From Candidatus Heimdallarchaeota archaeon LC_2 (GTDB taxonomy: Archaea > Asgardarchaeota > Heimdallarchaeia > Heimdallarchaeales > Kariarchaeaceae): a DNA stretch of 43,146 nucleotides. The translations under genes were made by a program, and so were the position numbers. The DNA lies in assembly GCA_001940725.1 (NCBI GenBank), contig MDVR01000058.1:1-43146 (forward strand). The letters run 5' to 3'. A model generated the notes under the pieces. The model was not told the origin of the DNA. It saw nothing but the letters and a program-made list of their open reading frames with translations, and made no database searches. This document shows positions 17,176 through 21,462 of the stretch, piece by piece; the first letter of the stretch is position 1; every line of letters begins with the position of its first letter.

Positions 17176-18024
17176 TCACACTACATTTTCTAAAAATTCA
17201 ATCATATCATATACTGCTTTTGGTTCCTCGAATCTGAACATATGGGCTGCATTTGGATACTCAATTAATTTTGAATGTGGAATTAATTTATGAATAAGTA
17301 ATGAATTTTCAGGTGAAATTAATTTATCTTTCAGACCCACAAGAACCAGCGTAGGCATTTTGATCTCATTTAATTTTTCCTTTGTAGCGTGATTATAAAT
17401 TGCTAATAGCTGATTTCGATAACCATGAGGTTTCTGAATTGGGTAATCTGGTGGATTATCTATATAATTTTTAATCTCATTATAATGTTTATCAAAAAAT
17501 TCTGATGTATACACAGCTTCAAAAAATTTCCACTGATCCGTCTTGTAATCTCCTTTACGATGATTAGCTAGTAATTCCATACTATCTTCAGATAATCGAT
17601 GCCCGCCTCTTCCAACAGTTGTTACGGGTAGTAAGAGTGATTTAACTACTTGGGGATATTTAAGTACAAAATTTAGTGCAATCATCCCACCCATAGATTC
17701 ACCATAAAGATGAATATTAGTCAGATTTAAATGATTAATTAAACCCATTGTATCTTCAACAAATTGGTCCATAGAATATAATTCTTTAGGAACATCAGTT
17801 TTTCCAACACCTCTATTATCGAAAATGATTACTTGATATTTTTCAGTTAATACATCCAAAAAATTTGGTGGCCAAATTGTAATATCTGCAGTGATACCTG
17901 CAATTAGAACAAGAGGCTCACCTTTACCCTTTACTTCATAATAAAGATTAATTCCGTTAGAATTACAAAATGGCATAAATTTCGATAATTCCACAGAGTG
18001 AAAATCTTGTTGTTTAATTTTCAT
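17176..18024 (-). CDS. Alpha/beta hydrolase
   Basis: 282 residues of the alpha/beta-hydrolase fold. The oxyanion segment is LVLIAGITAD, the strand IIFDNRGVGKTD follows, and the nucleophile elbow is GESMGGM with Ser. A later VLVGLKDKLIS supplies the acid, and NAAHMFRFE supplies the His, so the catalytic triad is intact. Sequence style is that of the 3-oxoadipate enol-lactonase/haloperoxidase group, but the substrate is unknown. ATG at 17976 (MPFCNSNGINLYYE) is an alternative start typical of the family; the longer start at 18024 fits better with the AT-rich promoter region upstream. Divergent from the wHTH gene. Confidence 0.9.
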   Translation of the reverse strand: MKIKQQDFHSVELSKFMPFCNSNGINLYYEVKGKGEPLVLIAGITADITIWPPNFLDVLTEKYQVIIFDNRGVGKTDVPKELYSMDQFVEDTMGLINHLNLTNIHLYGESMGGMIALNFVLKYPQVVKSLLLPVTTVGRGGHRLSEDSMELLANHRKGDYKTDQWKFFEAVYTSEFFDKHYNEIKNYIDNPPDYPIQKPHGYRNQLLAIYNHATKEKLNEIKMPTLVLVGLKDKLISPENSLLIHKLIPHSKLIEYPNAAHMFRFEEPKAVYDMIEFLENVV

Positions 18025-18161
18025 CTTCTGATTAGAAATTAATACTCTTATACTCTAAAAACAACAATATTGGAAACTTATGTTATTTGCAAAATGAATC
18101 AATCGATAATTCAACGAAAAAGTGAAATGTCTTAATTATCTTATTGGAGGTGACGAATAGA

Positions 18162-19064
18162 GTGGGGATGCCTCAAACTAGAATTTCTAGATATCAATGC
18201 TTGTTATGCACAAAAATGAGAAGTATTGAAATATCAATATCAGACCATGAAGAAAAAGTCTCAAAAAGTGCTAATGGTTTGGTTTTATATTCTGATTTGC
18301 ATAGATGCGACGAGGGGATTTTAGCCATAAATAATGCTTATGTTGATCTAGATTTTGCAGTGAGATCCTATTCGTCAATTGAGCTTCCTGATAAACGAAC
18401 ACCAGTAATTAAATCTTTACCTGGTCTCCCTCTGCCCCAAACGAAAGTAGCTCAAACAACTCGAGAATATACCATAACTCAAATGCTACCTAAAAAAAGC
18501 CTAAGATTAATAATTGAGGATAATCGGTTGGATGCTATTATTAAAATTGGGAGAATACCAAAGAAAGAAAAACCAATTGCTGTGGCTGAATCAGATCAAG
18601 GATCCATTATATTAGACTACTATCCATCAGAATTAGATTACAATACAAATATGGAGAAATGGTTTAACATTTTAGTCAATCAACTTGAATTGCTACCAGT
18701 AACCAGACTTGGTCTATTTGTAGAAACACTACGATTTATTCACAGCTTTTACCGTAGCCCTCCAGATGCATTTCAAATTAAACAGCTACAAACAATTTTG
18801 TCTTCTCATGAAACCTATTTCAAGCAATTAATTGATTTATCTGAAAATGAAAGTCTGGGGACAATCAATGCTAAATATGGAGAAGATTTAGGGAACCTTT
18901 CCTTAAAAATACTCGGGGTTTTGAAAGAAAATCCAAAATTTAGCCTTAAAGAGGTTGCATTTAAATTGGATTGGGATTTGATTCATTTAATTTATACTTT
19001 ACTCATTATGGAACAGGAAGGCTTTATTGAAATTCATCGTCCTGCCATAGTAGATCGAAAATAA
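18162..19064 (+). CDS. Cys-containing winged-helix protein, unknown
   Basis: About 300 residues. A perfect Shine-Dalgarno GGAGGTGA at 18146-18153 points to GTG at 18162 (8-nt spacing) as the start rather than TTG at 18144; ATG at 18168 is also possible. The N-terminus has YQCLLC and later HRC, which could form a small zinc site. The middle is a mixed alpha/beta domain. The last 60 residues (SLKILGVLKENPKFSLKEVAFKLDWDLIHLIYTLLIMEQ) look like a winged-helix DNA-binding domain. It could be a transcription factor or an adaptor. A perfect 9-bp inverted repeat (19081-19089 with 19102-19110) lies 16 nt after the stop and may mark the transcript end. Confidence 0.65.
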   Translation: MGMPQTRISRYQCLLCTKMRSIEISISDHEEKVSKSANGLVLYSDLHRCDEGILAINNAYVDLDFAVRSYSSIELPDKRTPVIKSLPGLPLPQTKVAQTTREYTITQMLPKKSLRLIIEDNRLDAIIKIGRIPKKEKPIAVAESDQGSIILDYYPSELDYNTNMEKWFNILVNQLELLPVTRLGLFVETLRFIHSFYRSPPDAFQIKQLQTILSSHETYFKQLIDLSENESLGTINAKYGEDLGNLSLKILGVLKENPKFSLKEVAFKLDWDLIHLIYTLLIMEQEGFIEIHRPAIVDRK

Positions 19065-19130
19065 AATAACTTCATTAGATAAATAGTATATACCAAATTC
19101 AATACTATTTAGGAAGTTAGCATAAGTAGA

Positions 19131-19138
19131 TTTTAAAC
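19131..19138 (+). promoter_or_regulatory. TATA box of candidate RNA gene
   Basis: TTTTAAAC preceded by a purine-rich AAGTAGA, as expected for TATA and BRE elements. It lies about 25 nt before G19160, the first base of the first hairpin of the candidate RNA. Confidence 0.5.
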
Positions 19139-19159
19139 TCAATTATTGCTAAGACATTA

Positions 19160-19345
19160 GGGAGTCGTTTCCCAGTATTAAGAATACAAAATCCCACATA
19201 ATAGGCAAGGCACTCTGAAAAGAGTAACAGTTACATACTATTGGGATGCAAACAGGCTATTGGAGGTATATCACCAATAGTGGGGTTCCTGTCAGTAACC
19301 CCATTGTAGCGTCTTCGGGCAGTTACAAGAAAAGTATATACTTTT
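19160..19345 (+). ncRNA. Candidate structured non-coding RNA with pseudoknot
   Basis: A 381-nt gap between two genes holds a G/C-richer segment that folds extensively. Elements seen: GGGA/TCCC hairpin (19160-19173); GTATT/AATAC hairpin (19175-19187); a long-range stem ATCCCA (19191-19196) with TGGGAT (19242-19247), continued by ATAG/CTAT; inside it a perfect ACTCT-GAAA-AGAGT tetraloop hairpin (19212-19225); CTATTGG/CCAATAG (19257-19280); TGGGGTT/AACCCCA (19281-19303); and a terminal TTGTA/TACAA hairpin capped by GTC-TTCG-GGC (19304-19328). ACAGG (19252-19256) can pair with CCTGT (19288-19292) in a hairpin loop, making a pseudoknot. It ends in the palindrome AAAAGTATATACTTTT plus a further T. 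It does not match RNase P, SRP, 5S or tRNA consensus that I can recall. Confidence 0.65.
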
Positions 19346-19407
19346 TAACTGATTAGATAACTAATTCCATTCAAAATTTGTTCTAGATAAATTGTTAGAA
19401 CATTTGA

Positions 19408-19416
19408 ATTTATAAT
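19408..19416 (+). promoter_or_regulatory. TATA box of the synthetase gene
   Basis: AATTTATAA about 30 nt before ATG 19446 predicts a very short leader. It shows the synthetase has its own promoter, so the RNA at 19160-19345 is unlikely to be just its leader. Confidence 0.5.
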
Positions 19417-19445
19417 ATCCAAAACTTCCGTGAAAATAGATACCA

Positions 19446-20792
19446 ATGGTTGATATCAAATTAGGTTTTGACAAAAGATACAAAACACATAGAACAATAG
19501 ACATCAATGCTGAAAATGCGGGGGATGAAGCTCTAATTGCAGGATGGGTTACAGTACATCGGCATAAAGGTAAAATTATATTTGTGAAGATACGGGATAG
19601 TAAGGGAATTGCTCAAATTGTTATTAAGCAAGGAGAGGCTTCAGAAGAATTGTGGACTATAGCTGAAAAACTTAATTTAGAAAGTGTGATTAGTGTTAAG
19701 GGAACCATAATCGCTGACGATAGGTCTCACACAGGGGCTGAACTAAAACCATTGGAATTAAATGTGTTAGCTGATGCTGAAACATTACCAATTGATTTAA
19801 CTTCCAAGAAGACTGAGACCTTGATTGATACGATTTTTGAATACAGACAGTTATCAATCAGAAGACCGGAAGCAATTGCTGTGTTTAGAATTAAACATCA
19901 CATTGGACAAGCGGTTCGTGAATTCTATACAAGCGCAGGCTTTTATGAAATTTGGACTCCATATGTTTTAGGTGCATCCACAGAGGGAGGCGCTGAAATG
20001 TTCAAAGTTGACTACTTCGGTGAGGAAGCAGTATTGGCACAGAGCTGTCAGTTCTACAAACAAGCATCAATATTCAGTTTAGAAAAGGTGTTTGGGATCA
20101 TTCCTTCTTGGCGTGCAGAAAAATCGCGTACTCCAAAACATGTTAACGAATTTCATCAAATAGAGACTGAAATCGCTTTTGGCTCTGATGAGACCATCAT
20201 GCAAGTTCAAGAACAATTGGTCCACCATATACTAAAAACAGTAATTGAAAAATGCCAAGAGGATCTCAAATTCTTGGGAAGGAGTGATCTAAAGGTCCCT
20301 ACTATACCATTCAAACGTTTTACTTTTGGAGAGGCAAAGGCTTTGGGAACGAAATTAGTAAAGGAAGAAATGGATATGGATGAGCCAGAAGGAGATTTAT
20401 CTACCCCGGCAGAGACTGCATTATCACGTCATATTGGAGAACCATTCTTCATTACACACTGGCCTACTGAACTTCGTGGTATGTATTATGGATCAGATCC
20501 CGAAAATGATGATATCACTCTATCAATCGATTTGGTAGCTCCAGAAGGGGTTGGTGAATTATCATCTGGCGGAGTAAGAGTAAATGATGCCGATACTTTG
20601 GTTCAGCGTATCTTGAAAAAAGATATGGACCCTGAGATGTTCCGTTGGTATATTGATATGTTCAAATTTGGTGGAGCCCCACATGCAGGATTCGGTCTAG
20701 GATTCGAACGAATAACACGTTGGATAACTGGCGTAGCTCATATTCGAGAAGCAATAATGTTTCCAAGAACACCTGACTTACTTACTCCATAA
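19446..20792 (+). CDS. aspS: Class IIb aspartyl(-like) tRNA synthetase
   Basis: 448 residues, the length of archaeal AspRS. An N-terminal OB-fold anticodon-binding domain (AGWVTVHRHKGKIIFVKIRDSKG) precedes the class II core: motif 2 WRAEKSRTPKHVNEFHQIETEIAF, motif 3 HAGFGLGFERITRW. LAQSCQFYKQ resembles AspRS LAQSPQLYKQ, while DLVAPEGVGELSSGG resembles the equivalent AsnRS stretch, so the amino-acid specificity is not certain from these motifs. It is predicted to charge tRNAAsp (possibly also tRNAAsn in a non-discriminating manner). The residue after GWV, used to tell discriminating from non-discriminating archaeal enzymes, is Thr here, neither of the usual Trp or His. Confidence 0.85.
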   Translation: MVDIKLGFDKRYKTHRTIDINAENAGDEALIAGWVTVHRHKGKIIFVKIRDSKGIAQIVIKQGEASEELWTIAEKLNLESVISVKGTIIADDRSHTGAELKPLELNVLADAETLPIDLTSKKTETLIDTIFEYRQLSIRRPEAIAVFRIKHHIGQAVREFYTSAGFYEIWTPYVLGASTEGGAEMFKVDYFGEEAVLAQSCQFYKQASIFSLEKVFGIIPSWRAEKSRTPKHVNEFHQIETEIAFGSDETIMQVQEQLVHHILKTVIEKCQEDLKFLGRSDLKVPTIPFKRFTFGEAKALGTKLVKEEMDMDEPEGDLSTPAETALSRHIGEPFFITHWPTELRGMYYGSDPENDDITLSIDLVAPEGVGELSSGGVRVNDADTLVQRILKKDMDPEMFRWYIDMFKFGGAPHAGFGLGFERITRWITGVAHIREAIMFPRTPDLLTP

Positions 20793-20811: not shown

Positions 20812-21462
20812 TTAATATCTTAAATCTCGTAAAAATTTACCAATGTCAGTTGCAATCCAAAATGCCACAGTATTTGCTGGTTTACCTTCGACTTCCATTA
20901 AATGATTCGCTCCACCGATCCTACTTACCTTTGCATGTCTAGCCATCATTGTGGTTTGATTTTTTAATCTATCATCAGTCCCTCTATTACTTTTACTCCC
21001 CTGGCAAAATAAACCATCTCCCATTAATGCAGTTAAGGCTGAAGTATCTACCAATTCTGGACGATTTGGGGGATACATTGGATAGCTGATACATATTGTT
21101 GGGGGGATTCCAAAATCTGCATAGGAAATACTTGCAACTCGTAAAGCAGTGAGTCCTCCTATACCTATACCTCCTACACACCATTTCTTATCAGGGAATT
21201 TACTTATTGCATAATTCCAAACTTCAAGATATGCTAGATCCAGAATTTGTGGACTGTCTGCTTTGTTTTGTTTTTTCATTTGAAAAGGGAAGTTAAATCG
21301 GAGTGAGGATATGTCTTTTTCTCGTAGTTTTTTGGATAAATGGGGTAATATTCCTTCATTCATCTTTAGCTTTTCAGCTGGTGCCAAGATGACTCCCCAT
21401 TCCCCATTGGCCTTGACAACTTCTCCTTCCATTTCAATATCAAAAGGGATTTTAATACTCAA
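20812..21462 (-). CDS. KANL3/Tex30-like hydrolase-fold protein, triad degraded
   Basis: 216 residues of the compact alpha/beta-hydrolase group that includes Tex30 and KANL3. The expected nucleophile elbow G-x-S-x-G-G reads GIGIGG, with Gly in place of Ser. The expected acid motif GTRD-P-F-G-T reads GSKS-N-R-G-T, with Ser in place of Asp. His is kept in GGANHLMEV. Two of three catalytic residues are therefore missing and hydrolase activity is unlikely; a binding or structural role is inferred. The start appears to be TTG at 21462; ATG at 21432 is the alternative. The zinc protein gene lies 66 nt upstream in the same direction and may share its transcript. Confidence 0.75.
   Translation of the reverse strand: MSIKIPFDIEMEGEVVKANGEWGVILAPAEKLKMNEGILPHLSKKLREKDISSLRFNFPFQMKKQNKADSPQILDLAYLEVWNYAISKFPDKKWCVGGIGIGGLTALRVASISYADFGIPPTICISYPMYPPNRPELVDTSALTALMGDGLFCQGSKSNRGTDDRLKNQTTMMARHAKVSRIGGANHLMEVEGKPANTVAFWIATDIGKFLRDLRY

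Follow-up and report, generated by a model that had tools for sequence, protein, structure and literature searches.

The 43,146-nt stretch of DNA analysed here (the window) carries a structured RNA locus between two protein-coding regions, an open reading frame (ORF) at 18144-19064 and a tRNA synthetase gene at 19446-20792. The upstream ORF has no Pfam match; its homologues P0122, P0124 and P0127 (the last named Kariarchaeaceae) are 85%, 76% and 69% identical, and homologues with 26-40% identity are present in 7 of 58 genomes of the class. The synthetase gene, assigned to class IIb, asparaginyl/aspartyl type, in the original prediction and by eye, shares 71-72% identity with Candidatus Heimdallarchaeota loci L001-L003; both genes mark the organism as a Heimdallarchaeon. 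The region between the two (19065-19445) contains no ORF of at least 70 amino acids. GC content, calculated in 100-base windows, is 0.38-0.42 across 19150-19349, compared with 0.23-0.31 in the adjoining ones. ORFs resembling alpha/beta hydrolases lie on the reverse strand on both sides of the locus, at 20812-21462 and 17176-18024 (PF20408 and PF00561).

A multi-hairpin RNA had originally been placed at 19160-19345. Its tight fold is confirmed: the segment 19155-19350 has a minimum free energy of -51.8 kcal/mol (z -3.12), and 1 of 200 dinucleotide shuffles is equally stable. The core (19251-19353; z -3.72, 0/200 shuffles equally stable) and the 5' part (19156-19250; z -2.59, 5/200) are each stable separately. 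The 3' boundary needs to be revised, as the scaffold extends to 19353 and the RNA is part of a larger element at approximately 19076-19353. The GAAA loop, the UUCG loop and the terminal palindrome GTATATAC described before are all found in the letters. The 5' domain (19160-19250, forward strand, as are all features of the RNA and element below) comprises GGGAG..UUCCC and GUAUU..AAUAC hairpins and a long-range AUCCCA..UGGGAU pairing that encloses an ACUCU-GAAA-AGAGU hairpin. A promoter belonging to the RNA itself, as first proposed, may lie in the TATA-like box TTTTAAAC at 19131-19138, which is separate from the synthetase gene.

The RNA matches no class in Rfam, in line with the original prediction: none of 4227 models reaches its gathering score in the 43-kb window, and the five matches with E <= 10 in 19000-19460 have E-values of 1.5-4.9, far under the gathering scores. 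With the RNA as a DNA query, the best BLAST match in genomes G001 and G002 has an E-value of 0.17; this locus (L006) resembles coding sequence by eye and was rejected. Short matches to the RNA occur in 23 phage records, none with 80% query coverage.

Homology to the 3' ends of Asgard tnpB genes

TnpB is a jumping-gene nuclease related to CRISPR Cas12. The first covariance model (R1) had the window RNA as its single source; run with stricter filters, it matches 1 of the 58 class genomes at E <= 1. The match, in G041 (locus L044), has an E-value of 4e-8, covers the whole model length and consists of the final portion of a tnpB gene (Pfam Cas12f1-like_TNB, OrfB_IS605) together with the right end of the element. 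Related tnpB genes are found in 6 of the 58 class genomes at E <= 1e-30 and in 4 of 227 genomes of the phylum at E <= 1e-60. The 3' ends at L044, L046, L047, L048, L051, L052 and L053 follow a common plan of a P4 hairpin, a GG-rich P5, a GUAGC/GNUAC P6, a right-end hairpin and a terminus reading ACTGAT, ATTGAC or GTTGAC.

A further model (R2), applied to 227 Asgard genomes at E <= 0.1, gives 38 matches in 19 genomes, its own seven training sequences counted in. Neighbouring tnpB genes were sought with an HMM of TnpB proteins of length 356-419 from the 120 listed (E < 0.01). A long upstream tnpB accompanies 17 of the matches and a partial one 6, some of the latter lying where a contig ends; another 4 matches are truncated by the end of their contig, and 11 have no tnpB within 1.5 kb. 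A third model (R3) was trained on six tnpB-linked 3' ends, picked from 23 tnpB-linked matches (alignment A6: L044, L046, L078, L063, L053 and L077, with L078 nearly identical to L046); the window was left out to avoid circularity. In the 43 kb, R3 yields a single match at 19236-19353 with 66.7 bits and an E-value of 1.3e-18, rough as all our covariance-model E-values are, and nothing more up to E 10.

On this comparative evidence, 19160-19369 is very probably a TnpB-type omegaRNA (reRNA) gene within a 278-bp, tnpB-less IS200/IS605 mini-element of the PATE-like kind. The scaffold is homologous to a tnpB 3' end and right end, both by R3 and by a remnant of the TnpB C-terminus, and the loop of stem 1 forms a pseudoknot with the bases preceding the predicted guide. 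There is no overlap with or adjacency to a tnpB gene: six-frame translation of the 43-kb window gives no match to the TnpB HMM, and 14 codons are all that is left. We therefore file the RNA as the omegaRNA of a tnpB-less element and not of a complete TnpB system.

In the original prediction the RNA was of unknown class and possibly a new archaeal family, a proposal superseded by the homology of the core to the omegaRNA of Asgard tnpB 3' ends. An independent RNA with a chance likeness to omegaRNA would account for the lack of an Rfam match and for a 5' domain unseen in tnpB-bearing elements, but it is contradicted already by the match of a model blind to the window and by the TnpB remnant, to which the covariation described below is added; we regard it as highly improbable. 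A reading of the RNA as a leader of the synthetase gene was likewise rejected, the RNA being absent by eye upstream of that gene at 10 loci in other genomes (L014-L021, L023 and L024, with 334 bases available at L017). R1 matches none of 14 synthetase-bearing loci apart from the window (L003 and L022 have no upstream DNA, and L001/L014 and L002/L015 are each the same place), and R2 matches none of six of these. We see no link between the RNA and the synthetase.

Conserved helices and the pseudoknot

The structure was assessed in an alignment of the window with the seven 3' ends that share the common plan (A2, eight sequences). Including the pseudoknot, 95.5% of 245 cells are paired and both-side changes are seen in 19 of 31 pairs. 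None of 500 shuffles scores as high on any of five measures, and structures slid along the alignment pair 28-42% of cells. With the window left out (A6), 95.0% of 180 cells are paired and both-side changes occur in 20 of 30 pairs. In the window core, all 28 pairs with letters on both sides are standard, the other 3 of the 31 falling in an alignment gap. One alignment (A4) was dropped since it placed the 3' portions of L044 and L046 wrongly, and A3 (window, L085, L095 and L064), A5 and A7 enter no count.

Helix P4 (19257-19263 with 19274-19280, 7 bp) changes on both sides in all seven pairs, with 94.6% of cells paired in the eight sequences. P5 (19282-19287 with 19297-19302; 89.6% of cells) does so in three of six pairs and corresponds to stem 1 of the ISDra2 omegaRNA, following the topology given in the relevant passages of PMC10097598. 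The P5 loop (GUCAGU, 19291-19296) pairs with the last six bases of the scaffold, which are also the right-end terminus (ACUGAU, 19348-19353). This pseudoknot forms all six pairs in all eight sequences, three of them with both-side changes, through the variants UCAGU/ACUGA, UCAAU/AUUGA and UCAAC/GUUGA, and it is also conserved in A6. A different pseudoknot, ACAGG 19252-19256 with CCTGT 19288-19292, had been proposed originally; the letters exist, but 35% of 40 cells pair across the eight sequences, which is the shuffled level. P6 (UGUAGC 19305-19310 with GUUACA 19322-19327, closed by the UUCG loop and equivalent to ISDra2 stem 2/3) is paired in 97.9% of cells. Its support comes from conservation and not from covariation, since no pair changes on both sides in A2; in A6 one of six does. 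The right-end hairpin AAAAGTATATACTTTT (19330-19345) occupies the position of ISDra2 stem 4 and changes on both sides in 6/6 pairs among relatives, three of the window's six pairs lying in an alignment gap in A2.

In the ISDra2 omegaRNA as described in passages of PMC10097598, the stem 1 loop forms a pseudoknot with positions -6 to -2, and stems 2, 3 and 4 and a 16-nt guide follow. The window RNA has P5, the pseudoknot, P6 and the right-end hairpin in the same order, the stem-by-stem correspondence being our own reading of those passages. Given this shared order, transcription should pass the right-end hairpin and not terminate there. The terminal palindrome and T-tract, first taken for a terminator, are thus reinterpreted, the palindrome being the right-end hairpin of the transposon. 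Unlike the ISDra2 omegaRNA, the window RNA does not overlap a tnpB gene beyond the 14-codon remnant, it carries both its own TATA-like box and a distinct 5' domain, and it reaches the gathering score of no Rfam model.

The 278-bp element, its tnpB remnant and the predicted guide

The mini-element spans 19076-19353 and is delimited by a left-end hairpin and the right end. The left-end hairpin (19080-19111) has a 10-bp stem and a 12-nt loop and is followed by GGAAGTT; an analogous hairpin followed by AGGAATT is found at L075, L085, L094 and L095. The sequence GTATATAC at 19086-19093 within it recurs in the right-end hairpin. Directly before the element, TTCAT at 19071-19075 is the probable transposon-adjacent motif (TAM) and left cleavage site, an assignment transferred from relatives. 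A left-end script applied to 30 of the 38 R2 matches recognised six canonical left-end hairpins, and the TAM rests on four of these (L075, L085, L094 and L071), which have TTCAT within 30 nt upstream. Of the remaining two, L095 is preceded by TTTAT and L066 has neither TTCAT nor TTTAT within 30 nt. A weaker left-end hairpin with TTTAT is present at L093. By eye, TTCAT is also seen at L046-L049, L052 and L072, and no clear TTCAT left end at L044, the best R1 match. The likeness of the window's left end to the canonical form is limited to the hairpin, the GGAAGTT tail and TTCAT.

With palindromes near both termini, each containing the shared GTATATAC, and no transposase gene, the element agrees with PATEs in these features. 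A Halanaerobium hydrogeniformans PATE-like element of ~271 nt, described in a passage of PMC7290912, combines a left hairpin with the final 58 nt of tnpB and the right end, and among the Haloquadratum walsbyi PATEs in the relevant passages of PMC3119063 (e.g. HqIRS71) one is non-coding with tnpB C-terminal sequence. The window element is similarly short, with hairpins near both ends and no transposase gene, and has kept the tnpB 3' end and right end. The passages concerned treat these as DNA elements and do not consider the right end as a guide RNA, whereas the window element shows an omegaRNA fold with covariation.

Both ends of the window element carry the 9-mer ATTAGATAA (19074-19082 and 19352-19360). 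PATEs are described in PMC3119063, in the passage concerned, as causing no target duplication; the repeat could stem from duplication of a target, from one insertion nested in another, or from chance.

The tnpB remnant, TNSGVPVSNPIVAS, is encoded at 19273-19314 and represents the last 14 codons. Twelve of the 14 residues are identical to the C-terminus of P0020, a Kariarchaeaceae TnpB by name, which is the closest among the 120 TnpB relatives listed (E 4e-6 for that comparison); P0002 was tried as the counterpart, fitted poorly and was set aside in favour of P0020. The remnant strengthens the identification as a TnpB omegaRNA. Directly before it lies KQAIGGIS, in another frame, while P0020 has GGISTNHGVLVSNPIVAS in a single frame, so coding is broken at this point. 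The broken coding also favours a decayed transposon relic, for which the identification would be unchanged but the omegaRNA would no longer be made or used. This is a real possibility, though we do not think it the probable state of the locus: against it stand the uniformly standard pairs of the window core.

The predicted guide, TAGATAACTAATTCCA (19354-19369, 16 nt), lies in the insertion flank, its length set by analogy with the ISDra2 reRNA, in which the final ~16 nt derive from DNA flanking the element according to the relevant part of PMC8612924. If the omegaRNA is active, transcription would begin at ~19160, directed by the TATA-like box at 19131, and run past the right end into the flank, giving a scaffold with a ~16-nt guide from 19354. 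A related TnpB made elsewhere in the genome would bind this RNA, and the complex would cut TTCAT followed by the guide sequence, which is the site as it stands once the element has been excised; if the element is an insertion, that site would read TTCAT directly followed by TAGATAACTAATTCC. Such cutting would keep the element in place, as in the ISDra2 model set out in part of PMC8612924.

Movement of the element, whether past or present, would have depended on a Y1 transposase acting in trans. At E <= 1e-10, 52 of the 58 class genomes, G001 and G041 included, have no Y1 transposase. Among the six that do, G042 and G039 have it next to a tnpB of this group: the G042 copy (G042:C178:1241-1540) contains one in-frame TGA, and that of G039 is a fragment. 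Judged from its sequence, the G042 Y1/tnpB pair is a decaying IS605. With the transposase in only 6 of 58 genomes and broken in both places where it adjoins tnpB, mobility of the element now is doubtful.

A search for guide targets among the 241 TTCAT sites on both strands of the window found at least 9 of 12 matching bases at one place, the element's own left tip. There, 10 of the first 12 guide bases match the sequence after TTCAT, and a 10/12 match occurs at four further positions on the forward strand besides the guide and the left tip. The match between guide and left tip is unexplained by the mini-element omegaRNA model.

The 5' domain and other tnpB-less copies

The 11 R2 matches without tnpB within 1.5 kb are L064, L067, L070 (whose stretch contains 100 N), L072, L074, L083, L085, L093, L094, L095 and L096. 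Ten of these are recovered by R3 at E <= 1, with L067 reaching no better than 0.13; L074 is missed. The lower scores of R3 in other tnpB-less copies (L095 21.7 bits, L064 37.6, L096 17.9 and L067 11.5) are a further point in favour of a decayed relic.

A hairpin in the 5' domain of the window RNA begins with AAGGCACTC (19207-19215), which is common to the window and the tnpB-less elements L085 and L064. None of 2000 shuffles gave a 9-mer common to all three, the motif having been chosen post hoc and L095 left out. What survives of the originally claimed novelty is that the RNA is a tnpB-less copy whose 5' hairpin start recurs in two other tnpB-less Asgard elements. The TATA-like TTTAAACT is also found upstream of the RNA in L085 and L095, and not in L064. 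These sequence likenesses suggest a common origin of the 5' domains of the window, L085 and L064 but do not prove it, given that the alignment of the domain among the window, L085, L095 and L064 is poor and that R1, which includes the window's 5' domain, reported neither L085 nor L064 from the 58 class genomes.

The sharing of AAGGCACTC hints at omegaRNA-only elements that may need TnpB in trans. A broader proposal is an Asgard lineage of such elements, with their own promoter and a common 5' RNA domain, which would spread or persist through a guide RNA loaded into the TnpB of other copies, as parasites of TnpB systems or as host-tamed guides. We put this forward tentatively, and it is made less probable by the absence of AAGGCACTC from the other 9 of the 11 tnpB-less matches, L095 among them. 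BLAST does not detect the inner part of L085 in either of the two tnpB copies that its genome carries, the match being confined to the last ~44 bases; L085 is accordingly more than tnpB leftovers, which argues against a mere relic for the similar window element.

Two pairs of tnpB-less elements resemble each other. L085 (1330-1626) and L095 (1570-1876), both in G047, are 68% identical over 424 nt and appear as diverged mini-elements whose left ends, TATA-like boxes, 5' regions and omegaRNA cores are similar; the second of them is situated downstream of an ORF which resembles, by eye, a proteasome-activating nucleotidase. L072 (G068) and L094 (G064) are 75% identical over 279 nt and by eye have the box GAGTTTAAATA in common.

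TnpB-type scaffolds can serve ends other than transposon upkeep, as in TldR, the nuclease-dead TnpB regulators. A comparable host function for the window RNA, with a trans-acting or nuclease-dead TnpB that would, for example, repress a guide-matched promoter, would fit the TATA-like box, the intact fold and the start of the 5' hairpin that tnpB-less copies from three genomes, that of the window among them, have in common. It is nonetheless unlikely, as the TTCAT sites of the window offer no target except the element's own left tip. Unlike TldR, moreover, the window has no TnpB-like match, and no promoter target is seen in it.

Once the locus is read as the omegaRNA of a tnpB-less mini-element, what was an unknown structured RNA becomes an RNA-guided system open to testing, and this in Heimdallarchaeia, which are often positioned close to where eukaryotes arose. 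Annotation based on Rfam would miss it. If standalone omegaRNA genes with their own promoter do exist, they would represent a guide RNA parting from its nuclease gene, a separation also characteristic of CRISPR-Cas12. Our literature search brought up no account of tnpB-less omegaRNA genes from Asgard archaea, and the terms MITE and PATE have no occurrence in the text of PMC12558985, which deals with archaeal circular omegaRNAs.

An omegaRNA matching R2 (E 3.9e-8) is also present at the tnpB 3' end of the IMG/VR viral contigs L086, L087 and L088, at 2462-2587. The tnpB of these contigs belongs to the same broad family, with 33% identity to that of L044.
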